Assembly: GCA_026416585.1 (NCBI GenBank)
Contig: JAOAEV010000050.1
Coordinates: 1 to 33,236 of the forward strand
Origin: Chlorobiota bacterium
GTDB lineage: Bacteria > Bacteroidota > Ignavibacteria > Kapaibacteriales > NICIL-2
Reading direction: 5' to 3'
DNA: 33,236 nucleotides
Under the pieces are notes generated by a model. That model did not search any database. It was not told the origin of the DNA and saw only the letters and a program-made list of their open reading frames with translations. Both the position numbers and the translations under genes were made by a program. Each line of letters starts with the position of its first letter. Position 1 is the stretch's first letter. Of the stretch, positions 284-33,236 are shown piece after piece.

Positions 284-3200
284 TTAGCGAATCAAAAGCA
301 TCGGGTAGTGCCTGGTTGCAGAGGGAGTGTAGATACGACACCAGTAAGTGCCCGTTGCATAGTGACTCATATCTACCGATACCTGATAGGCATATCCAGC
401 GCTGAGTTTACCAATCTGGACACGATCGATTATTCTGCCGTCAGCTGCAAGCAACTCAATGGCATACTCGCCTTGTTCGTTCGGTGCAACGGTCAGGTGA
501 ACAACATCGGTGGCTGGATTTGGTGTGATTGTCAAAAGTGGTAGCTGTAGGGTCGATCCCAGCAAGCGTAGACCGCCAGCGCCGCAGAGCGTCAGGCAAA
601 GCTGCCCGTTGCCTGTTCCAGGGTTGAGCCACGTTGTCGGTTTGATGCCGGTGTTGGTCCAGCGTGCTTGGACGATGAACACAGAGTCACACTGCCGATC
701 GCCGAGCATAGCATCACCGACAAGTTGCGTAATCACTTGCGGGTTACTGCTAATAGGAGCGAGTAATGTATCGATCGTGATGGTGATGTTATGGCGGTCG
801 TGGGTGCGGCTGTTGAATGATTGTATTCGACCCCCACGCGCGCGAACACCCGTCGGCATAAATAATTGATTGGGTACATCGAGTACCAGAAGAAGCTGTG
901 CATTAGGAATCATCAGTGCAGTATCGAGTTGGCCGTAAATATTGAGTGCGACTTGTCGGTCTCGTGGGTTGAGAATGCGAAGCGAATCAAGCCAGATCGA
1001 AAACCCGATACCCGGAATCGAAACAGCACGTAAGAGAACAGGAATGCTATCGGTGCAGTTCATCCCCAAACTGGTAAAACGCACCCACAGAGTATCGTCG
1101 AACTGCCCGGTGTCACCGGCATTGTACTCTACATCGGCAGTTGCAGTTTTTGTGACGACGTCAATGCTTACGACCTGAGGCGTGACCGAGTAGTATTGCA
1201 TCCACTGACTCACGCCGAATGTGTACGTCATACTGCGGGTGTAGTTGTTTGTCAATTGCAAAGGAAGTGTGCGCGTGTCCCCTTGCTTGACTTCTCCGAA
1301 ATCGAGAACAGAGTCTGCTTCGATCGGTATGGTACGTTCGCCGATAAAATTGACTGTGTCGAGGACTTCCTGTCCGTTGATGATGTAGCGAAGCGCAAAA
1401 TGTGCATTTTTTACGCCTGTTCTTGTTCCTGCAGGATTGAACTCAATCTCGACAGAGAAGCTGAAACCAGACGGAATGCTATACGGTAGAGTTGCCCAGG
1501 GTGTACCGGTGATGCGGAACAAGCGGCTATCTCTACCAGAGATATTGAGCTCCTCAATTGTTGCACTACTGCTCGGATCATTGTTTTTGATTGTCAGTGT
1601 GCGTCGAACCGTCGTACATGGTGCAGCAATACCGAAATCGAGCGGGCGCGGTGAAATTGCCAGTGCATTATTTGTCGGCATGATCCGGATAGGAATTTTC
1701 ACCGAGTCCACACACGGGCAGGACAGCACAATAGTGATCGTGTCCTCAATCGGGCTGAGCGAGGTCGGAGTGATGGTAAAATAGAGGTCCCGACTTGCTG
1801 AGTATGGTGGAACCGTGATGACTTGCACAAGCGGAACAATCTCTGGACGACGTGTGCGAATTGCACTGATGCATGCTTCGACACTGCTCAGATTGCGGAC
1901 CGTGAGTGGTGGTTGTGACTGTGACGAAAAATTGACGGGCACATCCACGAGAACATAGGGTTGTGGGGTGAATTCGAGTACTAATGCTTGTTGAAGCATG
2001 CGGAGTGGTATTTCGAGTGTGCGAATCGTGTCTTCCCGCACAAGGAGGGTTAGCATCGCTGTTTTAATTCCATCGGGATTTTGCGGATATACCCGTGCTT
2101 CAATGATGATGCGGATGGAATCCCCCGTCGCAAGCATTCGTTGCGCTGGTGGCTGCTCGATGATGGTAAAGTAACCAGCGTCAGTGCCGCCAATTGTCGC
2201 AGGAAAGAGTAGCTGTGCATCGCTATTGCCGATGTTACGGAGCCAAATGGTATCTCGTCGGCTACCACAGGCGATGGTTCCGAAATCGAGTAGTGCCTTG
2301 TTCGGTACGACGTTTGACACCGTTCCCACGCCGACCATGATGAAACGTACAGTATCCGGACAGCTCAAGCCAGATTGCTGCGAAATGAACACGAGCGTAT
2401 CAATCTGCAATCCCATTGCAGTAGGCGAAAATGTGACCGTGAGCCACAGTGTATCGCCAGATCGAATCGTTGTCGGGAAAGGTCTATTGGGAGGGATTGG
2501 CTGCCATGAATATGGTGGAGTAAGTACACGGCTCGGTAGTAAAATGACAGAATCCGTCGTACCTCGATTGACAATGCCCAGTCGCACCGAACGATTCCCT
2601 CCGACCCGCACATTCCCGAAGTCCACGATGTCCCCCGTTGCACCGACTCCGATAATAGACGACTCAATCGCATGAACACGCAGCGGAATTTTCACGACTT
2701 GGTCACACACGTCCACTTCGACGGTGAGGGTGTCGTAGAACGTGCCTACTGTCGCTGGAGTCGCGCGAAGATGGAGCCGCACGGTATCGCCAGGAGCAAG
2801 CGTCGTTCGCGATAACTGCGATACCGTAAAGATTGAGGTTCCCACACCAAGCCGACGGATTACTACCGGAGATGTGCCAACTGCGCGCAGGGCGAATGTC
2901 CGCTGCTTGGTTGTACCGCGACATGTTTCTGCAAAATCCACAAAATCAATCGAACGGGCTGCAACTGTGTCGGTTACAATGACCCCGGCGCTATCCACGG
3001 TGATACGGACGGGAATTCGTGCAATGACCGTGTCGGGAGTGCCACCGCGAACAATGATTGTGTCGTTCAACAAACCATAGTGACCAGGTTGAATGTGGAA
3101 TTCAACCACAATTGAAAGTGTATCGCCGGCTGTTGTTGGTATCGGAAATTGCCGTGGTCTGAGGATGCGAAAACCGGTTGTCGCGATCCCAAGAAATGCA

Positions 3201-5086
3201 GTGGAAATTGTTATACCACGCGTGCCGGGGTTGATAATTCGAACCGAGTCGGTACGCATGTTGCCATTTACACAGCTGATGCGTCCCATATCCAGCACAG
3301 CAGGCTGGATTTCGAGTGGTGGTGCAAGCACGCGGACGATCCGTCCAGATGCATGAGAGAACACAGCAGTTGGTCGAGCCTGTGTGCGAGACACAGTTTG
3401 TGGTTGCTCGCGTTGTGCTGCCGCACAAAGTAGATAGTCAGTACCGCGTGGTAAAGTGATAGTCGTGCTCCACCTACAATTACTCCCGACGATGACGGTA
3501 TCGAATGCGCGCCAAATTCCATTTGACGGCTTGACGAATATCACAATCGTTTTTCCTGGTGTACCGCTCCCTTTTAGTAGAAAATCACGGCTGGCAATTG
3601 CTATGGTGTCCATTGTCGGACCAATGTATGCCGATGGTCGAAGCAATACCGAAAGAGTATCAGCAGCGTCGAATCGAATACGTCCATCGCCCCCCTTCGT
3701 GTTCGACTGGTTTCCACCAATTGCGGAAAGCTGGACTTGGCGAATACCGAGTGCCGCCAAGTGTATCCCTCCACCACTACCGCCACCTCCGCGACGAGAT
3801 GAAGACGTTCCGCTTCCCGATCCATCACCACCGTTGGCTGTAACCGACAAAGACGTTATTTCCATGCCGCAGAGTGCGACTGCACCCCCGCCGCCACCAC
3901 CACGACCACCACATGCAACAAAAGGGAAGGATGAATTTCGTGGGTTACCACTGGCACCACCTGCGCCACCGGCAAGCGGAACAAGCGTTGTATCACCGTG
4001 GACACGTCCGGCATTGTTCCCGTTGATGCTGGTGGCTACTCCTGGTGTTGCATAGCCACCGGCAGCGCCGTCGCGATTGTCGGAGACACCGCTGGCACCG
4101 CCATATCCACCATCCGGTGAACAATCCGATCCGCTACCACAGCCGCTACCACTGCTACCAAAGGGATGTCCGGTGCCTCCGCCGGATGATTCATAGGTAC
4201 CTCCATCGGTTCCTGGCATGCAGCCATTGAGTGATGAGCCATTAGGTCCACTGCTACTACCAAGACCACGGTAGCTATTGGGAGTGTTGGTTCCACCGCG
4301 CCCACCACTGGTGTAACCACTACCTCCAGATGAACCTCCACCACTGATGTCACAGAACTCACCTCCACCGCCACCTCCACCTGGACCGCCATCAATTCCA
4401 TTTGCATCGAAACTAATCCGCGTTTGCGTTGGCGATACACCGCGTATAGTTCCTGTGCTCAGCAGTACCAGCGGTAAGTAGCCTTGATTACCGTTGCTAC
4501 CGTCCTGATCCGGATCGTCCGTCGAAATAGTGTATGTGCGTCCACCGAGAATGAGGCTATCAAATAGTAGAGCACCACGCCGTGAACGAACGCCTAACGG
4601 AGAACGCCCAAGAACAGTCTCTGCTCGTGTCCATACATCTGCTCCGGGGGTCGGACGGACGATATAGAATGTATCGGCTGTGGTGACACCGTTTGGTGTG
4701 CGAACACGAAGAGGTATCCGCCATTCCTGTGACAACTGCCGCCAATCCCACGAATTCGGTGTGGCAGTCGGTAGGACGAATGCAAGCGTTGTGATAAGAC
4801 GGCCAGACCACGAAGCAATAAGCGGTCCGAACACAATTTTTGACGAGTCCTCCGGACGCACAAGCTCGATACGCAGAGGGTCGCCGGGGTTGTTCAGATA
4901 CACTCCGTCGCTAACACCGAAATGTGTTCCATTGAGATCCGAATTCGTAGGAGCCACGAACTCGATGTACACAGCCATTCCCGGCGCACCGATGTCAGGA
5001 ATCAGGTACGACAGTGTCGGCTGAGCGACGACATCAACAAACACTGACACTACAGCTACTGCCAGGAGCAGTTTACGAACCAACAT
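284..5086 (-). CDS. Giant secreted Gly-rich, ASH-repeat surface protein with T9SS sorting domain
   Basis: A 1600-residue exported protein. Residues 1-21 form a signal peptide ending VVAQ. Residues about 22-145 look like an IPT/TIG-like beta domain (IPDIGAPG near 29-36). Residues about 229-469 are extremely Gly/Ser-rich with repeated GGGGSGG blocks and about seven scattered cysteines, closing with GGDGRIRF, a pattern found in Gly-rich bacterial adhesin-like proteins. From about residue 591 to 1400 come repeated choice-of-anchor D (ASH) beta modules with the recurring LDFG(T/N/E)-type strand. The last ~86 residues carry the T9SS type A sorting pattern (TITPNPATD near 1520, GTYWCRI, ending LLIR). 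It is therefore expected to be secreted through the outer membrane by T9SS and held on the cell surface. Its ATG lies 14 bases inside the RidA-like gene, suggesting translational coupling. Ligand and biological role are unknown. Confidence 0.9.
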   Translation of the reverse strand: MLVRKLLLAVAVVSVFVDVVAQPTLSYLIPDIGAPGMAVYIEFVAPTNSDLNGTHFGVSDGVYLNNPGDPLRIELVRPEDSSKIVFGPLIASWSGRLITTLAFVLPTATPNSWDWRQLSQEWRIPLRVRTPNGVTTADTFYIVRPTPGADVWTRAETVLGRSPLGVRSRRGALLFDSLILGGRTYTISTDDPDQDGSNGNQGYLPLVLLSTGTIRGVSPTQTRISFDANGIDGGPGGGGGGGEFCDISGGGSSGGSGYTSGGRGGTNTPNSYRGLGSSSGPNGSSLNGCMPGTDGGTYESSGGGTGHPFGSSGSGCGSGSDCSPDGGYGGASGVSDNRDGAAGGYATPGVATSINGNNAGRVHGDTTLVPLAGGAGGASGNPRNSSFPFVACGGRGGGGGGAVALCGMEITSLSVTANGGDGSGSGTSSSRRGGGGSGGGIHLAALGIRQVQLSAIGGNQSNTKGGDGRIRFDAADTLSVLLRPSAYIGPTMDTIAIASRDFLLKGSGTPGKTIVIFVKPSNGIWRAFDTVIVGSNCRWSTTITLPRGTDYLLCAAAQREQPQTVSRTQARPTAVFSHASGRIVRVLAPPLEIQPAVLDMGRISCVNGNMRTDSVRIINPGTRGITISTAFLGIATTGFRILRPRQFPIPTTAGDTLSIVVEFHIQPGHYGLLNDTIIVRGGTPDTVIARIPVRITVDSAGVIVTDTVAARSIDFVDFAETCRGTTKQRTFALRAVGTSPVVIRRLGVGTSIFTVSQLSRTTLAPGDTVRLHLRATPATVGTFYDTLTVEVDVCDQVVKIPLRVHAIESSIIGVGATGDIVDFGNVRVGGNRSVRLGIVNRGTTDSVILLPSRVLTPPYSWQPIPPNRPFPTTIRSGDTLWLTVTFSPTAMGLQIDTLVFISQQSGLSCPDTVRFIMVGVGTVSNVVPNKALLDFGTIACGSRRDTIWLRNIGNSDAQLLFPATIGGTDAGYFTIIEQPPAQRMLATGDSIRIIIEARVYPQNPDGIKTAMLTLLVREDTIRTLEIPLRMLQQALVLEFTPQPYVLVDVPVNFSSQSQPPLTVRNLSSVEACISAIRTRRPEIVPLVQVITVPPYSASRDLYFTITPTSLSPIEDTITIVLSCPCVDSVKIPIRIMPTNNALAISPRPLDFGIAAPCTTVRRTLTIKNNDPSSSATIEELNISGRDSRLFRITGTPWATLPYSIPSGFSFSVEIEFNPAGTRTGVKNAHFALRYIINGQEVLDTVNFIGERTIPIEADSVLDFGEVKQGDTRTLPLQLTNNYTRSMTYTFGVSQWMQYYSVTPQVVSIDVVTKTATADVEYNAGDTGQFDDTLWVRFTSLGMNCTDSIPVLLRAVSIPGIGFSIWLDSLRILNPRDRQVALNIYGQLDTALMIPNAQLLLVLDVPNQLFMPTGVRARGGRIQSFNSRTHDRHNITITIDTLLAPISSNPQVITQLVGDAMLGDRQCDSVFIVQARWTNTGIKPTTWLNPGTGNGQLCLTLCGAGGLRLLGSTLQLPLLTITPNPATDVVHLTVAPNEQGEYAIELLAADGRIIDRVQIGKLSAGYAYQVSVDMSHYATGTYWCRIYTPSATRHYPMLLIR

Positions 5087-12525: not shown

Positions 12526-12803
12526 GCAGTGCGACGCGCTGCGCGCACACGTGCAGAGTCAATCAGTATCCGAAGACGCTCTGGCTGACGTGCACGCTCG
12601 AAAAATTCATGACGGAATTCTTCCTCGGTGTAGCCGTGCGCGGAGAGTGCGTGCAAGACATCGCGCTGTGCTTGCGCCGAGTCTTGTTGCTTCATGCGAA
12701 CGACGAGCACGTCTGTGTAAGTATCCACAAATCGCTCGTCGCTGTCCGAGCACGATAGCAACAGTGCACACAATGCTACAACTGAAGCCTTACGACCGAA
12801 CAT
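12516..12803 (-). CDS. Small lipoprotein, DUF4296-like
   Basis: A 95-residue lipoprotein when started at the ATG at 12803. The longer frame from 12893 would lie inside lon and lacks a signal sequence at its start. The N-terminus [18 protein letters not shown] is a lipoprotein signal with lipobox LLSC (acylated Cys18). The mature part is charged and helical, with HGYTEEEFRHEFFERARQPE resembling the conserved C-terminal segment of DUF4296 lipoproteins of Bacteroidota (a helix, then G(I/Y)TEEQF, then a YY/FF...NPE element). Its start overlaps the end of lon by 14 bases, so it is likely the last gene of the bshA-to-lon operon. It overlaps the convergent barrel gene by 10 bases. Function unknown. 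Confidence 0.75.
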   Translation of the reverse strand: MFGRKASVVALCALLLSCSDSDERFVDTYTDVLVVRMKQQDSAQAQRDVLHALSAHGYTEEEFRHEFFERARQPERLRILIDSARVRAARRTAQK

Positions 12804-15234
12804 CAGTTGTGGCTGGTAGTGGTGCACCATTTTGCTCGGTGACGATAGGGGTCCGAAAAGCCAGGGGTATAGCTTCGTGGACTGTGCTGACATACCAGAT
12901 GGTCAAGTTCGACGTCAGATGAGAGGGTAGCTCTTCGATCTCACTCCGATTATCGGCTGGAACAATCACATGCGATATGCCGTGCCGCTGGGCAGCCAGA
13001 AGTTTTTCATTGAGACCACCGACTGGTAGAACCATCCCCCGGAGTGTTACTTCCCCAGTCATCGCAACATCGCCACGCACAGGAATACCGCGAGCAGCTG
13101 AGATGAGCGCGATTGTCATTGTGATACCCGCACTGGGTCCGTCTTTAGGGATTGCACCTTCGGGGACGTGAAGGTGAATGTCTTTTCCCGTCGCAAAATT
13201 CTCTGCAATACCAAAAAGTGCCACATTGCTACGCACAAACGAAAGTGCTGCTTGTGCAGACTCCTTCATGACATCGCCCAACTGACCAGTGAGCATGAGT
13301 TTTTCCGATCCGGACATGATGGTCACTTCGACAGGCATTACATCACCGCCCGTACTTGTCCATGCAAGCCCAGTTGCTACACCAATTCGATCTGTTCGGT
13401 CAGCAGTAAGCGAGCGGTATCGCGGCGATTTGAGAAAGGACTTCACCATCGCTGTATTGACTGTGTATCGTTTTCGCCGGATAAGCCGCCGAAATGCTGG
13501 ATCGGAACGAAGAGATTGGTTCTCGGTAGCAGGGTGTTCACTGTTGATTGTTTCGACAACTTGCTGGGCAATCTTGCGGAGAATGCGGCTGATCTCTCGC
13601 TCGAGATTACGCACACCAGCTTCACGCGTGTAATCACGGATGATCGTTGCAATGGCATCGTCGGCGAACTCGATAGTGATATCATCCAGCCCGAGCTGTG
13701 AGCGAAGCTTGGGAATAATATGGCGCTTGGCAATCTCGATTTTGTCGTGGTCGAGATAGGAGGAAAGTTCGATGACCTCCATCCGATCGAGTAGTGGTGC
13801 AGGAATATCGTAGAGCACATTTGCCGTTGCAATAAACAGCACGTTCGATAGATCGTAATCCACTTCGAGAAAGTGGTCGTTAAACGCACGGTTCTGTTCA
13901 GGATCGAGCACCTCCAGGAGTGCAGCTGCAGGATCACCGCGGAAGTCCAAGCCCAGCTTATCAACTTCATCCAGGAGGATGACGGGATTGATAGTGCCGG
14001 CACGTTTCATCACTTGAATGATCTTGCCCGGCATTGCACCAATGTATGTGCGGCGATGACCGCGGATTTCTGCTTCGTCACGCACCCCGCCAAGCGAGAT
14101 GCGCACGAATTTGCGACCGAGCGCGCGAGCAATGGACGAAGCTAATGATGTTTTTCCCACACCTGGCGGTCCAACAAAACACAGAATCTGCCCACGCATC
14201 GAACCGGTCAAGTTGAGCACCGAGATGTACTCGAGAATGCGTTCTTTAGGCTTTTCCAAATCGTAGTGGTCGGCATCGAGCACCTGGCGGGCGTTGGCGA
14301 TGTTGAGATTATCGTCGGAGCGTTGCGACCACGGCAGTGATGTCATCCATTCTAAATAGGTGCGAATGACACCGTATTCCGGCGACATGGGAAATGTTTT
14401 CCGCAAACGGTCGAGTTCTTCCAACGCGCGCTGGCGGGCATGTTGTGGCATGCCGGCACTTTCGATTGCAGCACTGAATCGTTCAATGTCGCCGGAGTGG
14501 AGCGACTCTTCGTCCTCGCCGAGTTCTTTTTGGAGGGCGCGGATCTGCTCGCGAATAAAATGCTGCCGCTGTGTCTGCTGAATTGTTGTGGCGACTTTTT
14601 CGATGACTTCTTCTTCGACTTCCGCACGTGCTGCCTGCTCTTGAAAAAGCTCGATTGTCAGCTCGACTTGCTGTTTGAAATTGGGTGCTTCCAGTATTGC
14701 TTGTACTTTGTCCGGTACCTCGTCGGTAAAACCGAACAGTGTCGGATACACCGCACCAACAGTGCCTGCCATGAGTACTGCATCGCGGTACTGCTTTTCC
14801 AGTTCCGGTTCAATCTCGGCGACATATGTGCGTATTTGTTGAACTAAGCGGCGGAAAAACGTTTCGTATTGTGCACCTTTGCGTGTCGGGAACTGCGTCA
14901 CGGTTGCCATCAAAAACTGCTCGTTGGACTCGGTTGGGGTAAAGCGAATGCGCTCCTCTCCAACGAGCGTAACCTTGAGCACGTTATTTGGTCCCCGCGC
15001 AATCGCAACTACCCGAGCCAATGTCCCAACGTTATGAAGATCATCGAACGTTGGTGCCTCAGCGTCGTTTGCTTGCATCACGACGGCAATTCGTTGATCC
15101 GTCGAATATGCGTGCTTGACCGCTGTGATAGACTGGGAACGTCCGACCATCAATGTGGTTCGTTGGAATGGGAGCAGCACCATTCCACGCAATGGCAAAA
15201 CAGGTACTGTCCACTGATGTACACGTTGAGGCAT
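12790..15234 (-). CDS. lon: ATP-dependent protease Lon (LonA)
   Basis: A full-length 814-residue LonA. The N-terminal substrate-binding domain covers about residues 8-205 ([12 protein letters not shown]), a coiled linker about 205-300, and the AAA+ module about 310-580 with Walker A GPPGVGKT (355-362) and Walker [10 protein letters not shown] (418-426). The protease domain is about 600-790 with the Ser-Lys dyad S701 (PKDGPSAG) and K744 ([10 protein letters not shown]). It degrades misfolded and selected regulatory proteins in the cytoplasm as an ATP-driven hexamer. It lies 61 bases after the TPR gene; that gap contains AT-rich sequence that could hold its own promoter, but no confident box. 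No CIRCE element is seen. A second, distinct Lon-family gene of the LonB/AAA_32 type starts at 30907. Confidence 0.97.
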
Positions 15235-15295: not shown

Positions 15296-16498
15296 TTACT
15301 TACCGTAGGGTGTTTGCAAATAGCGTTCTGCGTCGGTGTGCGAGTTTTGGATATCAGGCCAGCTAAGAACTTTTTTGTATTGCATAATCGCTAAATCCCG
15401 CTTCCCTTGGAGGTCATAGATTTTGCCGACGTACAGGTTGAGTTTGACCATAAACCCGGATGGGTCCTCGTCCAGGAGGCGGCTTGCTTCATCGCATTTA
15501 TAAAAGTAGGGCAGCGCTTCTTCGTACCGACCAATGTTGAATAGATGCCACCCGATATAGTAGAGTGCTTCTCGTGCAGCATATGCGTCATAGTATGGCA
15601 CTTTTGCTCGATAGGCGTCGAGGATTCTGTGCCAATGCGCAATACTGCTGTCGTAGCTGCCGATCTGAAGCAGCGCGACTGCATAGCGACGATGAAACAA
15701 TGGATTGGTTAAATACTGCTCGTAGAGTTCGCGACTGATGCGGTAGTATTCGTGTGGAAGATTTTCAAACTGGGGGCTATACACCTGCTGAAGCAACACT
15801 TTCGCTTCGATGTTGGCATAAGTGGCATTTTTTGCTGCAGCCTCCAGTTGCAATATCCCAATTTGCTTATCGCCGCTTGGCAAGAAGAGCATAATTGGTT
15901 TGAGCACGGGATATTTTTCAGGTAGTGCTGCAGCATAGTAGTTGTAAATACCCGTGCCGAGCATGATGTCATGGTTATTTGGTGCCAGTTGATTGCACTT
16001 GATCAGGATATCGAGCGCCAAACGTCCGTCATTTGCAGCTTTGAGCCAGCTTTGAACAGTGGCGTAGTAGCGTCCGCGATAGCCCAAGGAACCGCCTTTG
16101 AAAAACAACCCTGCAATGTCGTATGGATTATGCGACAAAATTGAATCACAGAGTGCAATAACACGATCGATTTTGCGGAGGAATGCATCTTCGTACCGCC
16201 GGCTATTGCGACGATCGAGTTGCATTTGCCACCACTCGATCATCGCATCGAGAAAGTATCCTGCTGGGTGTGATGGATAACGCCTAATCACGTCGGCAAA
16301 CAGAATCCGTGCCGAATCGAATCGTGCACCGTAGATGCAATCACGCCCGCGCCGAATAAGACTGTCGGCGTCGGTCCGGAGCAGAGCCCACTGCCCATAT
16401 AGCGGCAGTGCGAAAATTGTTGCTATCGTGATGCTGAATTTGTTTATCACGTCCGTATGAGGGAAAATGCAGGGTGAAAACGCAGATACCTGATGCAC
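15296..16498 (-). CDS. Exported tetratricopeptide-repeat protein
   Basis: About 400 residues. The frame opens with a GTG whose first base is the last base of the preceding TAG stop (TAGTG), a typical coupled start. An in-frame GTG at 16450 would give a cleaner signal peptide (INKFSITIATIFALPLYGQ), so the true start is uncertain. After the hydrophobic segment come helical TPR-like pairs: RGRDCIYGARFDSARILFAD near residues 50-70, a middle block around FKGGSLGYRGRY and GIYNYYAAALPEKYP, and a C-terminal set (YYIGWHLFNIGRYEEALPYF, then VGKIYDLQGKRDLAIMQYKK). The likely role is a periplasmic or envelope protein-protein scaffold. It sits between a T9SS surface protein and Lon on the same strand. No enzymatic motif is recognised. 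Confidence 0.85.
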   Translation of the reverse strand: MHQVSAFSPCIFPHTDVINKFSITIATIFALPLYGQWALLRTDADSLIRRGRDCIYGARFDSARILFADVIRRYPSHPAGYFLDAMIEWWQMQLDRRNSRRYEDAFLRKIDRVIALCDSILSHNPYDIAGLFFKGGSLGYRGRYYATVQSWLKAANDGRLALDILIKCNQLAPNNHDIMLGTGIYNYYAAALPEKYPVLKPIMLFLPSGDKQIGILQLEAAAKNATYANIEAKVLLQQVYSPQFENLPHEYYRISRELYEQYLTNPLFHRRYAVALLQIGSYDSSIAHWHRILDAYRAKVPYYDAYAAREALYYIGWHLFNIGRYEEALPYFYKCDEASRLLDEDPSGFMVKLNLYVGKIYDLQGKRDLAIMQYKKVLSWPDIQNSHTDAERYLQTPYGK

Positions 16499-19400
16499 TA
16501 TTGTCCGCTTCTACACAGGTAAAGAACAGCATGTGCCGTTCCTGTTGGTGATTGTGCACGAACGATATAAACCCCTGCTGGTAACACCGGAAGCATAAGC
16601 GAGTATGTTGAACCTGCACGAGCATCCACCCTTCTTGTCCACAACTCTCTGCCATCGAGTCCGTGAATGCTAACCATCCATAGCCCTTTGTCAGGGGCGA
16701 CAAGCTGTACTGACGCCTCACTACCGTCGTTGGGGTTGGGGATAACCATGAGTACAGAAACGGCTGTGCTTTCGAGTAATCGTACACCGCCCCGAGTGCA
16801 TAAGCCCGTGTACCGCACAATACCAGAACTCAGGGTAGGTTCTAAGAATGTTGATGCAGCGATGCTCTCGATCGCAATCGAATCTTCTTCGCTGTTGCCC
16901 AGTAGGACAGTGGCGCTGAGCGTTGCGATGGGCACTGTTTGAGGGATCATAGGCAGTTGATTCACTGGGACTGTGACGCTGATCACGCCACGCCTGCCAC
17001 GTGCGGGAAGTTGGACCAATGTGCCTGGTTCAATCGAGCGTATCAGTAGCATTGTGGGGTTATAGCTCAACACAACATGAAGTGTATCAAGACGCTGTGC
17101 ATTCGGATTGCTACTCCAGCTGTAGAGCCGAATATGCACTTTCTCATCGAGCGGGGAGATGGTAACATCCTCGACCTTCACCTCGATAGGAATGGTGCGA
17201 TCCTGTCGTATTGCTGAACCACGAACAACAACTCGAATCGTGTGTCGGCATGGCACAACTTCCTCGATGATGAGCGTATCAGTAAAGTTGCCGTCAGTGC
17301 TTGGTGAGAACTGAATCGTCGCTACATATTCTGCGCCAGGTTCGATCACCGCATTCTCTTGAGGCTGTCCATTGAGCGTAAATGGCTGGCTCCTGCTGAA
17401 CGTGAGCATAACAAGTGCCGCTGTGTCAGCAGGATTGACCATTGTTAGTGGCAGAAACGCTGCCTGCCCAACATCTATCGTTCCGAACACAATAGAGGTG
17501 TCCTGTGCTGTAACGCTCTCTTTGAATGATATGAATACCGAGTCGTGCGCAGTGCATCCATACTCTGTTTCTACTTCGAGGCGATACCACCCAGAATCAG
17601 CAATGGTTATCACTGAATCACCTAACTGCCCGTTCCACCGATACCCAGCAAAACCAGCTGGAGCACGTAATGTAACTGTCTGACCACGGCAGATCCACGG
17701 CTGACTGACATTGATCCGCGTATTTGGGGTCTTGAGGATAGTGACAAGCTTCTCGAGCGTATCGCTGCAGCGGCTATCGAGCCACACACGGAGACGATAA
17801 GTACCCGGTATCGAGGGTTGTACTACCAATTCAGTGCTATCGGTGCGTGCAGCTATCACCACGAGGGTTGAATCGAGCTGCCAATGCACTGCTGTATTAC
17901 TGCTATTCTCGACGCGTGCGGTAACCAATGATCCAGTACACACTGTGTCGGCAACTGTGAGCAATGGCGTGCGTCGTTGGTCGAAGCGAAACGTCAGAGA
18001 TGGCATTGTCCAGGAACAACCGCTTGTATCAGTCACCGTTGCCACAAGTCGCGTGTCTGTGGTGATGGATCGCTGACATTCCGTACTACCATCTGACCAC
18101 TGACATTGCCCGTTTGCAGGACGTTCGATACTGACAACGATCGAATCGCCGATACATGCATGGAGCGTATCGCGTGCAACTGGCTGCCAATTGCGTCCAT
18201 CGTACCAGAGGTACCGCAGAGTGGGGCGCGGTGTGACGATAACAGTGTGCGGCAGTGATTCGATCGTGCATCCGTTAGTGTCTTCGACCACTGCATAAAA
18301 CGTTCCGCTGACGCTCACCCAGAGTGTATCACCACTTGCGATCAACCCGCCGCGATTGTCGAGCCAAACAGCACTGTGATAACGCCCGCGGACAACCAAA
18401 CCTATGCGCTCACCATCGCAGATGCGGAGTGAACGGCGCGGTGCAATCGTGTCAAGTCGTACAGGCTCGGTCGAAGCTGCGTTGATAAGGACAGTATCGC
18501 TTGTGACTGTGCAGCCACTGTGCGATGTAGCAGTGAACCAGTATCTACCTGGTGATGTCACGGTAAGACGTGGTGTGGTGTTCCCCGTATTCCATTGGAT
18601 CGAGGTGATGTTGGCACTATCGCGTGTCCACAGCTCGATGCTTTGACCTGCACAAATGACGCGATTGGGCGACGATGTCGCGATGCTCGGTGTAAACGTA
18701 CACAGTCGGAAAAGGAAACAATCGCTGCGATTCGATGGAGTAGTGCTGGCGCGATACTGCGGATTGATCAGTGGCTCGAAATCGGTGCTCCGTGTTTCTC
18801 CTGTGCCGATAATGTCGCCGTTTGGCAGCAATGCTGCAGCGTAGAGGATATCGTCACCTGCACCGCCGAACGTCGTTGACCAGAGATTCTGTCCGTCGCG
18901 GAAAAGAGCGATGAATATGTCGTCGTTCCCGCGTGGCGTCCAGAGAATACTCCGACGGCGCGGGAAATCAGGTGACGAAGTGCTTCCGGCGATTGCAACA
19001 CGCCCATCAGGTAGAAGCACAACGCTAAATCCAGATTCAGCAAGTCGTCCACCCCAGAACGATGCCCACACTGGTACTCCTCCTTCGCTAATGCATGCGA
19101 TGAATGCATCGTTGTAGCCGCTCTTGGTTGGCTGCGCGATGCTATCCCCGACAATTGGGAAATTCTCGCTCGAGGTTGTGCCGACGACGAAAAGCTTACC
19201 ATTCCAGTACCCAATACGATTAGCTAAGTCATAATCGTCGCCGCCGAGAAAGCTTGCCCAGATTCGACGTCCTGCACTGTTAAGCGCAATGATGAATGCA
19301 TTGTCGAGAGCCGGTGCACGAGTCTGGAATGCATTGGCGGTTGGGAAGTCACTGCTGACCGTAACACCAGTGACAAAGACACTGCCACTTGGGCTTGTCG

Positions 19401-20682
19401 TCACTCCATACGCTTCGTCGAAGCCAGTGCCGCCGTAGTACGTTGCCCACTGTATTTGGAGTGACTGTGAGGAGAGGGCAACGATGAAAATATCATTTTC
19501 GCCAGCAAGGGTCGCTTGCTGTGCCTGTGCGATCGGGAAGTCTGGGCTGTTTGTCCGACCAACTGCGATAAGAGTGCCATCGCGGCGAAGTGCGAGAGCA
19601 TTGACAAGTTCCTCTCGATTTCCACCGAGAAATGTTCCACGCACGAACGTACCGTCTGTGGTAAATGCAAGTACAACTGCATCGAAAGCACCACCGGCGC
19701 GATTCGATTGTGGTGGATCAAGAATTACCGATGGACTGCTCGACCATCCGCCAACGTAGAGCATCGAGCCATTGCAGACAATCGCCTTCGCCACTTCGTC
19801 GCGTTCTCCGCCAAAGTATGTTGACCACAAGTGACGACCGTCGGCGGTGAACTTCGCGATGATCATATTCTGCCGCCCACGATTGATGGATGTTCCGCGC
19901 AAGGGAAAGTCAATACTCAGTGAGTTGCCAGCGATATAAATGTTACCTGCTGCATCAGTTGCTACGTCACCGGCTGCGTCCTCTTGGGAACCACCAACAT
20001 AGCTTGACCACACAATCGCTGGATCCACAACAATCGGCAGTGACGGATCGACATTACCCACAATCCGATAACCAAATGTGGTATCGCTGGTGATGCGGTA
20101 GGTAGCAGAAAGGTGTTGAGTGCGTCCATCGGGCAGCAGTTGTACAGCAATCGGAGCTTCGTCAAGAAAATGTTCGGACGGGCTAAAAATATCCAGTGAT
20201 CCGTTGCCGTGGCGACTACTTGAAAGGCGTGCACCACGCAGCACAAACTGGAAATGTTCAAGTGCTGCTGGTGTCTGTGCAATCACATCATACTTGAGTC
20301 GATGAGGTGTCCAGTACAGCACAACATCCACGCCAGGAGCAACATCAGCGTATCGAATTGCATCGAATGCGCGCAATAGGCGTTGCGTGGTACCAGTGAT
20401 CACACGGTACTGTTCGCAGCGTTGCTTCATTGGTACGACAGTGCTGGGACCCGACGGAAAATCCAGATCGAAGCGTTCTAGTTCGATGGAATCACCACTG
20501 GGGCGAACACCAACAATACTGATCCCATCGGCGCGACAATAGATACGCATGGACCCTATGCGTCCGACGAACAATGCATCGGTGGATTCAAGAAAACCGC
20601 GGTTGAAAACGATCGGGGTGCTACCAACCACCGACGGCAGGAGCAACGTTGTCGCCACCAATGCATAAATCTTCATTCTCAT
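16498..20682 (-). CDS. Very large secreted SBBP-repeat/Ig/ASH protein with T9SS sorting domain
   Basis: About 1394 residues from the ATG at 20682. An ATG at 20676 and a GTG at 20715 are alternatives; the hydrophobic MKIYALVATTLLLPSVVGS favours 20682 or 20676. After the signal peptide, residues about 30-220 form the N-terminal domain that commonly precedes SBBP propellers (DUF7948-like). About 222-670 hold roughly eight SBBP beta-propeller repeats with the hallmark W-x-(T/S)-(Y/F)-(F/Y/L/W)-GG and D-x-x-G-N-I/x-Y-(I/V)-x-G. Cys-containing Ig/PKD-like domains (GRYWFTATSHSGC style) run to about 1090, then one ASH module (about 1100-1200), a cohesin-like or beta-rich segment, and a T9SS-type C-terminal domain (VIPNPNDGS, GLDGREL, AGVYIVRA). 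The end, LYLCRSGQ, departs from the usual basic tail. Surface display is expected; ligand unknown. It lies 54 bases after bshA. Confidence 0.88.
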   Translation of the reverse strand: MRMKIYALVATTLLLPSVVGSTPIVFNRGFLESTDALFVGRIGSMRIYCRADGISIVGVRPSGDSIELERFDLDFPSGPSTVVPMKQRCEQYRVITGTTQRLLRAFDAIRYADVAPGVDVVLYWTPHRLKYDVIAQTPAALEHFQFVLRGARLSSSRHGNGSLDIFSPSEHFLDEAPIAVQLLPDGRTQHLSATYRITSDTTFGYRIVGNVDPSLPIVVDPAIVWSSYVGGSQEDAAGDVATDAAGNIYIAGNSLSIDFPLRGTSINRGRQNMIIAKFTADGRHLWSTYFGGERDEVAKAIVCNGSMLYVGGWSSSPSVILDPPQSNRAGGAFDAVVLAFTTDGTFVRGTFLGGNREELVNALALRRDGTLIAVGRTNSPDFPIAQAQQATLAGENDIFIVALSSQSLQIQWATYYGGTGFDEAYGVTTSPSGSVFVTGVTVSSDFPTANAFQTRAPALDNAFIIALNSAGRRIWASFLGGDDYDLANRIGYWNGKLFVVGTTSSENFPIVGDSIAQPTKSGYNDAFIACISEGGVPVWASFWGGRLAESGFSVVLLPDGRVAIAGSTSSPDFPRRRSILWTPRGNDDIFIALFRDGQNLWSTTFGGAGDDILYAAALLPNGDIIGTGETRSTDFEPLINPQYRASTTPSNRSDCFLFRLCTFTPSIATSSPNRVICAGQSIELWTRDSANITSIQWNTGNTTPRLTVTSPGRYWFTATSHSGCTVTSDTVLINAASTEPVRLDTIAPRRSLRICDGERIGLVVRGRYHSAVWLDNRGGLIASGDTLWVSVSGTFYAVVEDTNGCTIESLPHTVIVTPRPTLRYLWYDGRNWQPVARDTLHACIGDSIVVSIERPANGQCQWSDGSTECQRSITTDTRLVATVTDTSGCSWTMPSLTFRFDQRRTPLLTVADTVCTGSLVTARVENSSNTAVHWQLDSTLVVIAARTDSTELVVQPSIPGTYRLRVWLDSRCSDTLEKLVTILKTPNTRINVSQPWICRGQTVTLRAPAGFAGYRWNGQLGDSVITIADSGWYRLEVETEYGCTAHDSVFISFKESVTAQDTSIVFGTIDVGQAAFLPLTMVNPADTAALVMLTFSRSQPFTLNGQPQENAVIEPGAEYVATIQFSPSTDGNFTDTLIIEEVVPCRHTIRVVVRGSAIRQDRTIPIEVKVEDVTISPLDEKVHIRLYSWSSNPNAQRLDTLHVVLSYNPTMLLIRSIEPGTLVQLPARGRRGVISVTVPVNQLPMIPQTVPIATLSATVLLGNSEEDSIAIESIAASTFLEPTLSSGIVRYTGLCTRGGVRLLESTAVSVLMVIPNPNDGSEASVQLVAPDKGLWMVSIHGLDGRELWTRRVDARAGSTYSLMLPVLPAGVYIVRAQSPTGTAHAVLYLCRSGQ

Positions 20683-20736
20683 CGCTGGTGCCACAGTGTT
20701 TCTGTGCTCATGCACCGAGCAAAATACGAATGGGGA

Positions 20737-28601: not shown

Positions 28602-28662
28602 GTGCTGACTCCCACGAAAAAGGGGCAACTCGATCAGTTGCCCCTGATACTACTATCAGCAC
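28602..28662. repeat. Nested inverted repeat in the convergent intergenic region
   Basis: An outer 7-base pair of arms, GTGCTGA (28602-28608) and TCAGCAC (28656-28662), encloses the perfect 10-base terminator stem at 28621-28645. A third, mutually exclusive stem CTGATA/TATCAG (28644-28649 and 28654-28659) overlaps both. The region lies between the phosphorylase and the tlpA-like gene, which converge. Confidence 0.6.
28617..28645 (-). terminator. Intrinsic terminator of the sigma/anti-sigma/TlpA operon
   Basis: AGGGGCAACT (28621-28630) and AGTTGCCCCT (28636-28645) form a perfect 10-base-pair GC-rich stem with a 5-base loop. Read on the minus strand, the stem runs straight into TTTTT (28621-28617), the classical rho-independent arrangement, about 60 bases after the tlpA-like stop. 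On the plus strand no T-run follows the stem, so termination of the phosphorylase transcript here would be weaker. Confidence 0.85.
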
Positions 28663-28703: not shown

Positions 28704-29336
28704 TTACATCGCTTTCTTGACAGCGTCAACGAAATAGCTTTTTGTGTTGGCGCCGATGATTGTTTGTTTATGGTTGCCATTGCGATCGAAAATGAGTGTC
28801 GTGGGAATTGCGTTGATCGGTGCAATGATCGTGTATGCTTCGGCGATACTCTTTGTCGAAAACGTTGAGCTCGGAACAATGTTGATATACGTGACACCCT
28901 TATCGGTCACGAAGTTGAGGACTTTACGTTTTGCATCGGCGCCATCGTCGAGCGATACACCGACAACGACAACATCACTTGCCATTTCACGAGATAGTTC
29001 GACAATATCGGGGATTTCCCGACGGCAAGGAGGACACCACGTCGCCCAAAAGTTCAGGAACACCACTTTACCCTTCGCATAGTCTGAAAGACGAATAGTC
29101 TTTCCACTGGCATCTTTCCACGTAATGTCAATGAGCTTGCCCGCGGCTGGTTTGGCAACTGCGACAGCATCAACGACGTAGTCGGCAGGCCCCGCAGGAG
29201 CATCAGGTGCAACCTGCGAAGAGAATGACTGCTGAACACTTGCCAATGCTGACTGCTCTACGCGTTCGGTAGAGAGCTTGTTGCAGGAGCTTAATGCAAG
29301 TGCTACTACAAGTATTATCGCCGCATAAATTTTCAT
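28704..29336 (-). CDS. TlpA/ResA-like thiol-disulfide oxidoreductase lipoprotein
   Basis: A 210-residue lipoprotein from the ATG at 29336, which overlaps the anti-sigma stop as ATGA. The frame opens 41 codons earlier inside that gene. The signal MKIYAAIILVVALALSSC carries a LSSC lipobox (Cys18). After a spacer rich in Ala and Pro (about residues 30-65), a thioredoxin-fold AhpC/TSA-Redoxin domain contains the active site WCPPC (100-104) and the cis-proline segment INAIPTTLIFD. It acts on the outside of the inner membrane, probably reducing or exchanging disulfides, as TlpA and ResA do. Being co-translated with a sigma/anti-sigma pair suggests it is either a regulated output or part of the sensing chain. 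Followed by a strong terminator. Confidence 0.93.
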   Translation of the reverse strand: MKIYAAIILVVALALSSCNKLSTERVEQSALASVQQSFSSQVAPDAPAGPADYVVDAVAVAKPAAGKLIDITWKDASGKTIRLSDYAKGKVVFLNFWATWCPPCRREIPDIVELSREMASDVVVVGVSLDDGADAKRKVLNFVTDKGVTYINIVPSSTFSTKSIAEAYTIIAPINAIPTTLIFDRNGNHKQTIIGANTKSYFVDAVKKAM

Positions 29337-30103
29337 GACGCGCCTTCTACAAAATAGGTGGCTAAAATATCTTTCGGGACATTTGCGACGACCGAGCAGT
29401 ACACTGATTGTACGCGCCAGAACATCCAGGAGCCTGCAGAGACATTTTCCGCGTACCATTTGCCAGTGTGCACGTATGGCTCGACCGATGCAGGTACCGC
29501 TAAAATACCGCGTTCGAACAGTTCTTCTGGTGCTTGGTACATGTAGATCAGCGTGTCGCCACGACGATAGACAAAATGTGCAAGCTTGGTGCCGTTGTGT
29601 TCGGACACCACTCCCCCGACGAGCGTTGCTTTGAATGGCACATCCACGAGTCGGTACGAGATACCTTGGGAGCGGAAAAATTCGGCAAGTGTCGCAAAAT
29701 CATTTGTGGCTTTTGCCACGGTGAGTTTGCCACCAACAATCGCTTGAAAATTCTCCAATGATTCGGTGCGGAAATCAACTGCTCGCTGTTGCCACGGAGC
29801 AAGGATGAAGAACACGATTGCGGCAACAGCTGCGACTGCTGCCGATAGCCAACGCACCGGTAAACGCACAATCCCGGATGCACTTACCGTATGTCGCGGA
29901 ATTGGTGTAATGTCCAAGTTAGATTGTCGTTCTATCTGCCGCTGTGCAGCGATTCGGATGCGCTGTCGAGTTGCGCGCAGTAATGCCACGTATGTTTCGA
30001 TACGCGGGTCCTGTTTGCAAAGTTCACGGTAGTGCTCCATTTCCTCACTTGTCGCACGACCGTCGGCAATAGCAATCAGGAAATCTTTATCGTCGAATTT
30101 CAT
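29333..30103 (-). CDS. Membrane-spanning anti-sigma factor
   Basis: A 256-residue single-pass protein. Residues about 1-60 are a charged helical cytoplasmic domain (FLIAIADGRATSEEMEHY), typical of anti-sigma domains in layout. One transmembrane segment lies at about 84-103, and residues 104-256 form a periplasmic beta-rich domain. The zinc-binding HxxxCxxC motif of ZAS anti-sigma factors is absent; the only cytoplasmic Cys is C29, and a single periplasmic Cys is C236. Its gene overlaps the sigma-factor gene upstream and the tlpA-like gene downstream by 4 bases each. The assignment rests on topology and on the operon position directly after an ECF sigma gene; no sequence signature alone proves it. 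Confidence 0.82.
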   Translation of the reverse strand: MKFDDKDFLIAIADGRATSEEMEHYRELCKQDPRIETYVALLRATRQRIRIAAQRQIERQSNLDITPIPRHTVSASGIVRLPVRWLSAAVAAVAAIVFFILAPWQQRAVDFRTESLENFQAIVGGKLTVAKATNDFATLAEFFRSQGISYRLVDVPFKATLVGGVVSEHNGTKLAHFVYRRGDTLIYMYQAPEELFERGILAVPASVEPYVHTGKWYAENVSAGSWMFWRVQSVYCSVVANVPKDILATYFVEGAS

Positions 30104-30804
30104 TGGAAATCTCCCTCGCTGGTGGTGTCAGATTCGATGTCGAATCGCTCGGAAGCACGCTTGATGTCATAGCCGTGGGTGCGTGCGTACTCCATTAGCC
30201 GTTTTGCAAGAGCTGCTCGTGCGCGATGCAATCGTGATCGGACAGTGCCAACTGGACAGCCGAGAAATTCAGCGGCCTCTTCGTAGCTAAAATCCTCGAT
30301 GTCGCAGAGTATCACGACAGTGCGGAATTCGTCCGAAAGTGAATCGAGAGCGGTCAGCACCTCATCGTCGAGCGAACGGTCAAGTTGTTCGGCGAATGGA
30401 TCGCTCGACGGTACATCGTCTGGTCGAAGTGTTTCGTAGAACTCTTCGATCTCTTCGTACGATACTGATTCGCCGCTGCGCTTATCGCTACGGTACTTAT
30501 TGATGAAGGTGTTTTTGCAAATTGTCAGTAACCACGCTTTCGCATTGGTACCGGGCGTGAAGCTATCGAGAAAGCGAAATGCTTTGAGGTACGTTTCTTG
30601 GACTAAGTCGTCAGCATCGTCTGGATCTCGGCACAGCCGCAGCGCAAATGCACGAACTGCTGCCATCTGCGGAACTAATTCTTGCTCAAATAGAAGCGTT
30701 CGTTCAGCGTGCGTCATCGGTATCGGTTCGGCGTGTGACTGCAGCGAAATTACTTCCGGCATTGCTTGCATCAGTAGTGTGGCAACGTTCATGACAGCTA
30801 TCAT
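30100..30804 (-). CDS. ECF-type RNA polymerase sigma factor
   Basis: A 234-residue extracytoplasmic-function sigma factor. Region 2 (about residues 41-108) includes DPDDADDLVQETYLKAF and AWLLTICKNTFINKYR. Region 4 (about 145-202) includes DEFRTVVILCDIEDFSYEEA and the helix-turn-helix LGCPVGTVRSRLHRARAAL. The N-terminal 29 residues precede what is usually the first ECF helix, so ATG 30717 (MTHAERTLLFEQE) is a strong alternative start. It presumably redirects RNA polymerase to envelope or redox stress genes and, as is usual for ECF factors, may activate its own promoter, but no cognate promoter could be identified. It is the first gene of a three-gene ATGA-coupled operon and divergent from the LonB-like gene. 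Confidence 0.94.
   Translation of the reverse strand: MIAVMNVATLLMQAMPEVISLQSHAEPIPMTHAERTLLFEQELVPQMAAVRAFALRLCRDPDDADDLVQETYLKAFRFLDSFTPGTNAKAWLLTICKNTFINKYRSDKRSGESVSYEEIEEFYETLRPDDVPSSDPFAEQLDRSLDDEVLTALDSLSDEFRTVVILCDIEDFSYEEAAEFLGCPVGTVRSRLHRARAALAKRLMEYARTHGYDIKRASERFDIESDTTSEGDFQ
30111..30115 (-). promoter_or_regulatory. Shine-Dalgarno GGGAG for the anti-sigma gene
   Basis: On the minus strand GGGAG sits 7 bases before the anti-sigma ATG at 30103 and inside the last codons of the sigma gene. It would allow efficient anti-sigma translation in addition to coupling through the ATGA overlap. Confidence 0.5.
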
Positions 30805-30806
30805 TG

Positions 30807-30822
30807 ATCGTTATTCAACGAT
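30807..30822. repeat. Short inverted repeat just upstream of the sigma-factor start
   Basis: ATCGTT (30807-30812) and AACGAT (30817-30822) flank a 4-base loop. Read on the minus strand this could form a hairpin 2 bases before the ATG at 30804. It may be an operator half-site pair or a translational structure; a role depends on which start is used. Confidence 0.35.
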
Positions 30823-30852
30823 GACAAACGCTCGTGCAGTGAGCGTAGTTCC

Positions 30853-30864
30853 ATACTGCAGTAT
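30853..30864. promoter_or_regulatory. Perfect 12-base palindrome between sigma and LonB-like genes
   Basis: ATACTGCAGTAT is self-complementary over 12 bases and lies nearly midway between the divergent starts (48 bases from the sigma ATG at 30804 and 42 from the LonB-like ATG at 30907). It is a candidate binding site for a dimeric regulator of one or both genes. Only position and symmetry support this. Confidence 0.35.
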
Positions 30865-30906
30865 CAATTTTGCCATGTACAGATGTTACACCATCGGGTC
30901 AGAATA

Positions 30907-33236
30907 ATGACACCGAAGATGCCCCAGCCCTTGCCCATAGAACAGCTCCGCTGGCGATGTGATGAACGGATTTTTCACTTCCGGACAACAAAAGAACTGG
31001 TGCCACTGCGAGGAATCGTCGGTCAGCAGCGTGCGATTGAGGCAATCAAACTTGGTGCAGCAATTGAGTCGCGGGGCTTCAACATTTTCGTGATGAGCTT
31101 GTTAGGGACAGGGAGACTGACAACCATCAAGCAGGTACTCGAACCAATTGCACAGCAACGACGTGATCTGTATGATTTTGCCTACGTACACAACTTCTCG
31201 AATCCTTCGATGCCGCGCCTGCTGCGTTTTCGGGCGGGACGCGCTCGTCAATTCAGCAAAGCGCTTGCCAGCACGATCGAGTTCTTGCGTGGTCGTATTG
31301 TGCAGCTATTCCGCGAGGAATCATTTCAGCGAAGTAGGAGTGCGATTACACAACGTTTTCGCAGTCGAGAGGCTGCCCTGATCGAACAGTTCAACAAACG
31401 TATTGCACCGCAGGGTTTTACTCTTGCGCAAGTAGCAGATGCTGACGGTACAACTCGCTACGAACTGATGGCACTGGTTCGTGGCAAACCTACATCAGTC
31501 GATGAAATTGCGCAACTGGTTAGCCAAGACAAGCTCAGTCAAACTCGTGCAGAACGGATCATCCGCACCTACATGAAACTTCGTGAAGAGCTCGTCAGCA
31601 TGAGTTACGAAGGGCAGGAGATGCAACGAGCATACGAGCAAGCACTCATCGAACACGCACGCAAAGCGGCTGGTATCATTATCACGGCAGCGTTCGACGA
31701 ATTACACATGCGCTTTTCCGAAGAAGCGGTTGGCGATTTTCTTCGCGATTGTGAACGTGACTTAATCGCGAATGTCGAAATGTTTTCGCCCCAGTTTGCC
31801 ACCGATGGTGACCACCAATTACCCGATGGGCGATTGCTGGTTGATAAGCTCAAGGAGTACACGGTCAATATCATTGTGGACAATGCGCAAACGCTATCAG
31901 CACCAATTATCATTGAGGCATTTCCGACTTACACAAACTTGTTCGGAACGATTGAACGCCGGTACGACCGCAGTGGGATGGTCCACACTGATTTCACGAT
32001 GATCAAAGCAGGTACCGTGCTGCGCGCCGACGGAGGCTATTTGATCGTCAATGCCAGTGATATCCTTGCCGACCCACAGGTGTGGCATACACTCAAGCGT
32101 GTGCTGCTCTATGGAAAACTCGAGATTCAATCCCCTGATGGTGGTGGGGGAGGACTTGTTCTTAAACCTGAACTGATTGACGTCAATGTCAAAGTCATCA
32201 TGCTTGGTGATTATCAGACGTACTTGGCACTATCGGCACTGGAAGAAGATTTCAACAAGATGTTCAAGGTCGCTGCCGAGTTCGATTACGAAACAGACCG
32301 CAGCGAAAAGATGTTGCAGAACTACGCTCGATTCGTCGCGCGCCTTGTTGAGGAAGAAAACGTGCTTCATGCCCGTCCATCAGGAGTTGCAGCGCTCATC
32401 GAGTGGGCGGTCGAACGTGCAGAAGATAAAAGCAAAATCACAATCAATTTCAGTGATGTTTCCGATGTTATTCGTGAGGCATCGTTTGTAGCGCGTCGGC
32501 AGCGCAAAAAGTATTTCGATCGTGCATGTGTTGAGGAATCGCTTCGATTGCGACGTCAGAGGACGGAGCTCCAGGATGTCAAAATCAAAAGTCAAATCCT
32601 CCAAGGTGTCCTGATGATCTCGACGAAAGGGGAACGGGTTGGCCAAATCAATGGATTGACAGTGTACTCAACGGGCTTAGTCTCGTTCGGCAAACCAGCA
32701 CGCATCACTGCGTCCACTGGTGCGGGTAATGCAGGCATTATTGATGTTGAGTACGAAGCGTCCTTGGGTGGCAATATCTATCGCAAAGGGGTACTGACAA
32801 TACCGGGATTGCTGCGCGAATATTTCGGGCAACGGCGTCCGCTTGCGTTATCGGCAAGCATCAGTTTCGAGCAGAACTACGGAGGCATTGACGGCGATAG
32901 CGCCAGCTTAGCTGAGCTGTATGCAATTCTATCGTCGCTGGCACGTGTGCCGCTTCGCCAATCGGTAGCGGTAACTGGCAGCATCAACCAGAAGGGGGAT
33001 GTCCAGCCTGTCGGTGGCATCAATGAGAAAATTATTGGTTTTTTCGAAATCTGTCAGCAGCATGGGCTCGATGGAACGCATGGTGTAATCATTCCGCAGC
33101 AGAATGTTGCTGACCTGATGCTTCCTGACGAAGTGATCGCTGCTGTCGAGAAAGAACTCTTTTGTGTTTGGGCAATCGGTTATTTTGCCGAAGGAATTCC
33201 GATTCTGACGGGTATGGAAGCAGGTGAGATATTGCC
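30907..33236 (+). CDS. LonB-like ATP-dependent protease (AAA_32 plus Lon proteolytic domain), C-terminus cut by window
   Basis: About 776 residues are visible, nearly the full length expected of this family. The N-terminus (LRWRCDERIFHFRTTKEL, GIVGQQRAIEAIKLG, YVHNFSNPSMPRLLRF) and the later GGYLIVNASDILADPQVWH and LKRVLLYGKLEIQS segments are typical of AAA_32 Lon-related proteases (E. coli YcbZ/LonH type). The proteolytic domain has GIDGDSASLAELYAILSSLA with catalytic S665 and VGGINEKIIGFFEICQQHGL with K708. The P-loop region reads FVMSLLGTGRLTT (61-73), where relatives usually have G-x-P-G-T-G-R-[TS]: the first Gly is Ser64 and the last position is Leu71. This may weaken ATP binding. It is a cytoplasmic protease, divergent from the ECF sigma operon. 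No Shine-Dalgarno is seen. Confidence 0.93.
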   Translation, partial: MTPKMPQPLPIEQLRWRCDERIFHFRTTKELVPLRGIVGQQRAIEAIKLGAAIESRGFNIFVMSLLGTGRLTTIKQVLEPIAQQRRDLYDFAYVHNFSNPSMPRLLRFRAGRARQFSKALASTIEFLRGRIVQLFREESFQRSRSAITQRFRSREAALIEQFNKRIAPQGFTLAQVADADGTTRYELMALVRGKPTSVDEIAQLVSQDKLSQTRAERIIRTYMKLREELVSMSYEGQEMQRAYEQALIEHARKAAGIIITAAFDELHMRFSEEAVGDFLRDCERDLIANVEMFSPQFATDGDHQLPDGRLLVDKLKEYTVNIIVDNAQTLSAPIIIEAFPTYTNLFGTIERRYDRSGMVHTDFTMIKAGTVLRADGGYLIVNASDILADPQVWHTLKRVLLYGKLEIQSPDGGGGGLVLKPELIDVNVKVIMLGDYQTYLALSALEEDFNKMFKVAAEFDYETDRSEKMLQNYARFVARLVEEENVLHARPSGVAALIEWAVERAEDKSKITINFSDVSDVIREASFVARRQRKKYFDRACVEESLRLRRQRTELQDVKIKSQILQGVLMISTKGERVGQINGLTVYSTGLVSFGKPARITASTGAGNAGIIDVEYEASLGGNIYRKGVLTIPGLLREYFGQRRPLALSASISFEQNYGGIDGDSASLAELYAILSSLARVPLRQSVAVTGSINQKGDVQPVGGINEKIIGFFEICQQHGLDGTHGVIIPQQNVADLMLPDEVIAAVEKELFCVWAIGYFAEGIPILTGMEAGEIL

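Follow-up and report, generated by a model that had tools for sequence, protein, structure and literature searches.

We identify a conserved three-gene unit, encoding an ECF sigma factor, a membrane anti-sigma factor and a TlpA-like lipoprotein, in a 33,236-nucleotide stretch of DNA (the window) that makes up the entire contig C88 in a genome of 2.06 Mb and 131 contigs. We propose, with a probability of about 0.62, that this trio works as an autoregulated circuit, headed by the ECF sigma factor, that responds to photo-oxidative stress, meaning singlet oxygen or light-generated oxidants. The reading is predicted from comparative sequence analysis, and its putative targets, crtB-crtI, dxs and the photolyase gene, point to photo-oxidative protection as opposed to envelope protein quality control.

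A conserved sigma/anti-sigma/tlpA operon

The sigma gene (30100..30804, minus strand) encodes both region 2 and region 4 (Sigma70_r2, 3e-16; Sigma70_r4_2, 5.6e-18), and its product scores above the cut-off for TIGR02937. Its likely start at 30792 lies 60 nt from the promoter described below, in line with the start distances of its relatives. On the same strand follow the anti-sigma gene (29333..30103), whose product has a putative RseA-like N-terminus, one transmembrane helix and a predicted RseB/MucB-like periplasmic domain with Cys236, and a gene for a TlpA/ResA-like thioredoxin-fold lipoprotein (28704..29336; AhpC-TSA, 3.7e-21; Redoxin) with the lipobox LSSC and a WCPPC motif. Both junctions, sigma/anti-sigma and anti-sigma/tlpA, are ATGA overlaps that can be read directly from the sequence, and an intrinsic terminator (28621..28645, minus strand; a 10-pair stem, then TTTT) closes the operon. 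An earlier sequence-only reading of this DNA had described three minus-strand genes joined by two such overlaps, with a strong terminator after them and an AAA_32 protease divergent from them, and all of these are confirmed here.

We searched 123 genomes of the order (Kapaibacteriales), mostly drafts, and detected the anti-sigma factor in 51 of them. Across the 41 loci studied (the window and 40 others), sigma and anti-sigma genes adjoin in every case and tlpA is next in 32; the nine loci without tlpA comprise eight of family f7, in which the pair stands alone, and one truncated contig. The trio recurs across seven families of the order, and because it is kept in 32 of the 41 loci we regard the arrangement as more than chance. 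The sequence-only reading had likewise taken the three genes as one unit, which this conservation supports. A deoA-like gene, convergent, lies downstream of the trio region in families f1, f4 and f5, and the region is therefore an old syntenic block. Directly upstream of sigma in f2, f3 and f4, and in the same direction, is a gene for an M17 leucyl aminopeptidase (L070, L039, L044 and other f2-f4 loci) that is possibly co-transcribed with the trio. The window's genus (g1) is represented by six genomes, and a single-protein scan gave only five records, all of the same genus.

A one-helix anti-sigma factor with a conserved periplasmic cysteine

The transmembrane helix of the window anti-sigma factor spans approximately residues 85-103, and one such helix is predicted in 34/34 orthologues. 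The window protein matched no Pfam family, while its orthologues gave weak matches to RseA_N (11/34, best 2e-4) and to zf-HC2 (12/34), and the N-terminus has a weak profile match to those of RsrA, MucA and RseA. A zinc-type anti-sigma factor was rejected on the count of the HxxxCxxC motif, which occurs in 0/34 orthologues. Cys236, on the periplasmic side, is kept in 32 of the 33 orthologues that have a residue at that position and is often the sole cysteine.

A confident AlphaFold model of the protein has a mean pLDDT of 88.6, with the periplasmic part mostly above 94. Compared with the PDB, the six best entries for the periplasmic domain are all RseB/MucB, the likeness being to their C-terminal domain (Z 6.6-7.0, 3.1-3.5 Å over 84-90 residues). 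The resemblance is moderate, with Foldseek E values of only 0.03-0.1, and we treat this modelled likeness as a lead, short of proof. Three loci in other families (L043, L063 and L070, in f9, f2 and f3) encode a second periplasmic cysteine close behind the transmembrane helix; an intramolecular disulfide with the conserved cysteine is possible in those families, an option absent in the window's genus.

A conserved ECF-type promoter and its predicted regulon

Upstream of sigma lies an ECF-type promoter, GGAACT-N17-GTT (30827..30852, minus strand), which in the window reads GGAACTACGCTCACTGCACGAGCGTT (30852-30827). Alignment of the sigma-lon intergenic region from the six genus genomes reveals a conserved GGAACT facing sigma, with GTT 18-19 bases past GGAAC; the spacers have diverged between most species, and the two boxes and their distance to the start codon persist. 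GGAAC-N18/19-GTT is thus found upstream of sigma in 6/6 genus genomes (G034 from a separate scan). A scan for sigma-70 consensus promoters gave matches no more numerous than in shuffled sequence.

Scanning the six genomes with the pattern GGAACT-N17/18-GTT gave 16-23 copies per genome, which in five of the six is no more than about the count for the reversed-pattern control, so there is no general excess of the motif. Many matches fall in coding sequence, for instance within GTGLGLSIV motifs of histidine kinases, and were not considered further. The intergenic copies recur before orthologous genes, mostly 46-79 nt from the start codon. This discovery scan pointed to a squalene/phytoene-synthase gene, sufB, dxs, an SRPBCC gene, photolyase and a pterin-synthase (PTPS) gene. 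A position-specific check of the genus orthologues found the motif before crtB, dxs, phr and the SRPBCC gene in 6/6 each, before sufB in 3/5 and before the PTPS gene in three genomes, with a spacing to the start codon (about 50-80 nt) close to that seen at sigma. The phr -10 element is GCTT in five genomes and GTT in one, and accepting GCTT there, like accepting any base after GGAAC, was a post hoc choice. The orthologues of crtB, dxs, phr and the SRPBCC gene included 13 held-out ones, which had not been intergenic matches in the discovery scan, and each of these carried the motif (13/13); it was absent at two further sufB genes. In a set of 163 well-scoring genes from the genus loci, called by a simple hexamer score made for this analysis, the motif stands only before sigma, phr and the SRPBCC gene.

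The crtB-like protein falls below all NCBIfam cut-offs, and its HpnD score exceeds that of the CrtB models. The gene directly after it belongs to the phytoene-desaturase family (TIGR02734, 345 bits against a cut-off of 238). Because a desaturase above cut-off directly follows the crtB-like gene, a carotenoid operon is the best reading of the pair from their sequences. Separately, motif matches confined to single genomes (L083, L134, L205, L210) lie before a peroxiredoxin gene (window's genome) and before universal-stress-like, carboxypeptidase-regulatory-like secreted and succinate-dehydrogenase-cytochrome-like genes.

Outside the genus, in the order families searched, no such promoter was detected before sigma and no comparably placed one before dxs, although at dxs a match lies 94 nt away in two f9 genomes. 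Since the promoter was found only in the window's genus, in other families the trio may control another regulon, or one that carries a different mark.

Signal and sigma factor: alternatives weighed

The same sigma factor and regulon could answer to general thiol, peroxide or disulfide stress, much as SigR does, with carotenoids and photolyase belonging to a broad oxidative package. The closest NCBIfam sigma score of the window protein is indeed to TIGR02947 (SigH_actino), though at 163 bits it is far below the cut-off of 251.6. The motif at sufB and, in the window's genome, at the peroxiredoxin gene would fit such a package, as would the tlpA gene inside the operon and the near-invariant periplasmic cysteine. 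SigR of Streptomyces (SigR-RsrA, ECF12) has the consensus GGAAT-N18/19-GTT, close to the GGAAC-N18/19-GTT found here. However, it is carotenoid, isoprenoid and photolyase genes, not thioredoxin systems, that are best conserved among the targets, and RsrA is a soluble zinc protein whose HxxxCxxC motif is absent from the window anti-sigma factor and from all 34 orthologues. We consider a general thiol, peroxide or disulfide signal rather unlikely.

It is less probable still that another ECF sigma factor, for example the one encoded next to photolyase, reads the motif and that the window sigma gene is merely one of its targets. About 12 genes of the sigma-70 family are present in the genome, and photolyase adjoins a second sigma gene in G033, G034, G036 and G037. 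Yet none of the 11 other sigma-70 genes of the window's genome has the motif, and ECF sigma factors are commonly autoregulated. The photolyase-linked factor is disfavoured as owner of the promoter because its gene has no such motif where it stands alone (the window's genome, G000, and G035). In the four genomes with adjoining genes (L226, L227, L228, L239), photolyase is directly followed by the second ECF sigma gene, an ORF that may encode its anti-sigma factor and a further conserved gene; in the other two genomes (L223/L224 and L225/L240) these genes are separated from photolyase, and the gene after it is methionine-synthase-like.

The divergent Lon-type protease is probably a neighbour

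Facing the operon is a gene for an AAA_32 Lon-type protease (30883 or 30907..33236, plus strand; PF13654, PF20436, PF20437, PF05362), whose final residues are cut off where the contig stops. Its product comprises AAA_32 (PF13654, 3e-42, 144 bits), LonB lid, LonC helical and Lon_C domains, with the catalytic motifs GDSAS and GGINEK of a Ser-Lys Lon proteolytic domain. The sequence-only reading had cast this protease as a co-regulated effector and suggested asking whether the four genes stay together; relatives with the trio but with the protease gene elsewhere would make it a chance neighbour, and this is the outcome here. Of the 123 order genomes, 95 carry the AAA_32 gene, but only in genus g1 does it adjoin the trio (6/6, divergent), and where f2, f3, f4, f5, f8 and f9 keep the trio it lies on another contig or is absent. 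No ECF-type promoter faces lon in five of the six genus genomes, and the single stray match, in G034, lies approximately 197 nt before the conserved N-terminus of lon. The genes flanking the trio and protease on both sides are also kept within the genus, so plain synteny explains the 6/6 adjacency.

We therefore reject the protease as part of the circuit, on synteny and on the promoter scans, and regard it as probably a genus-level neighbour. An envelope thiol/disulfide circuit that takes in all four genes and makes the protease a co-regulated effector would draw on the divergent arrangement kept in all six genus genomes but is very improbable, as other families keep the trio with no adjoining protease (in f2-f4 the upstream gene is the leucyl aminopeptidase, in the same direction), no matching promoter occurs at lon and synteny accounts for the adjacency.

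Elsewhere in the window, a canonical LonA (LON substrate-binding, AAA and Lon_C domains) is encoded at 12790-15234 (minus strand), giving the genome two Lon-type proteases. Also encoded, at 284-5086 and 16498-20715 (both minus strand), are two very large proteins that look secreted and have ASH/HYDIN Ig-like domains; the first carries at its end a type IX secretion sorting domain that scores just below cut-off.

Discussion

We propose that the trio is an autoregulated circuit for photo-oxidative stress. Anti-sigma factors sequester and then release their sigma factors, and at rest the sigma factor would, as known for the family, be held by the RseA-like N-terminus of its membrane anti-sigma factor. 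An oxidative signal in the envelope would be read by the RseB/MucB-like periplasmic domain, probably through Cys236, and the sigma factor freed. The freed factor is predicted to transcribe from the GGAAC-N18/19-GTT promoters, which are conserved upstream of its own gene and of the putative targets. The set would comprise its own operon, crtB-crtI and dxs (carotenoids), photolyase and the SRPBCC gene, with sufB and the pterin-synthase gene added in some species. The co-transcribed TlpA-like lipoprotein could reduce oxidised envelope thiols and may reset the anti-sigma factor.

We infer from the targets that the signal is photo-oxidative. The envelope thiol/disulfide stress circuit of the sequence-only reading survives in one respect, in that a redox link of the trio is plausible given the near-invariant periplasmic cysteine, and the putative targets point to photo-oxidative protection as the response. 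We offer as a speculative and rather unlikely extension that the fused RseA/RseB-like anti-sigma factor senses periplasmic photo-oxidative damage through its one cysteine, which TlpA would reduce to switch the response off, making a self-resetting light-stress sensor unlike ChrR or CarR.

Several known systems offer parallels. The putative RseA-like N-terminus and the periplasmic domain, with its moderate resemblance to the RseB/MucB C-terminal domain, recall sigmaE-RseA-RseB of E. coli and AlgU-MucA-MucB of Pseudomonas. RseB and MucB are separate proteins, whereas here the domain is fused into the anti-sigma factor, and the predicted regulon is not one of envelope protein quality control. The RpoE-ChrR regulon of Rhodobacter sphaeroides (ECF11) includes photolyase phrA and folE2 (PMC7074977), paralleled here by the photolyase and pterin genes, and the autoregulation predicted for the window's ECF sigma factor is a further likeness. 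ChrR, however, is a cytoplasmic zinc protein with a cupin-like domain (PMC6852236). The window anti-sigma factor lacks the zinc motif and has one transmembrane helix, a different periplasmic domain and a TlpA partner, and no match to a cupin family was found.

CarR has six transmembrane helices (DUF1109), and CarQ-CarR is not known to have a TlpA partner; the window protein, by contrast, has one helix and a folded periplasmic domain, and no match to DUF1109 was found. In Myxococcus xanthus, CarQ-CarR pairs an ECF sigma factor with a membrane anti-sigma factor in a translationally coupled operon, and CarQ activates the carotenoid gene crtI (PMC8156234). The window system resembles it in pairing such factors through overlapping genes and in having a carotenoid gene in its predicted regulon. 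OsrA has six transmembrane helices and two conserved cysteines, in contrast to the one helix and one near-invariant cysteine, within a folded domain, of the window protein. Both are membrane anti-sigma factors with a conserved cysteine, and the oxidant response of OsrA (Bradyrhizobium EcfF-OsrA, ECF16) requires its cysteine 179 (PMC3420878). The window architecture is common to none of the RpoE-ChrR, CarQ-CarR and EcfF-OsrA parallels.

No publication on ECF systems of Kapabacteria surfaced in our literature search. For Candidatus Kapabacteria, an uncultured lineage of hot springs, our analysis predicts a concrete regulon and suggests that light damage is answered through a sensor architecture unlike the proteobacterial ones. 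How the signal enters the cell is a step still unresolved for CarR (PMC8156234), and the conserved cysteine beside a thioredoxin-like partner would give a way to approach it.
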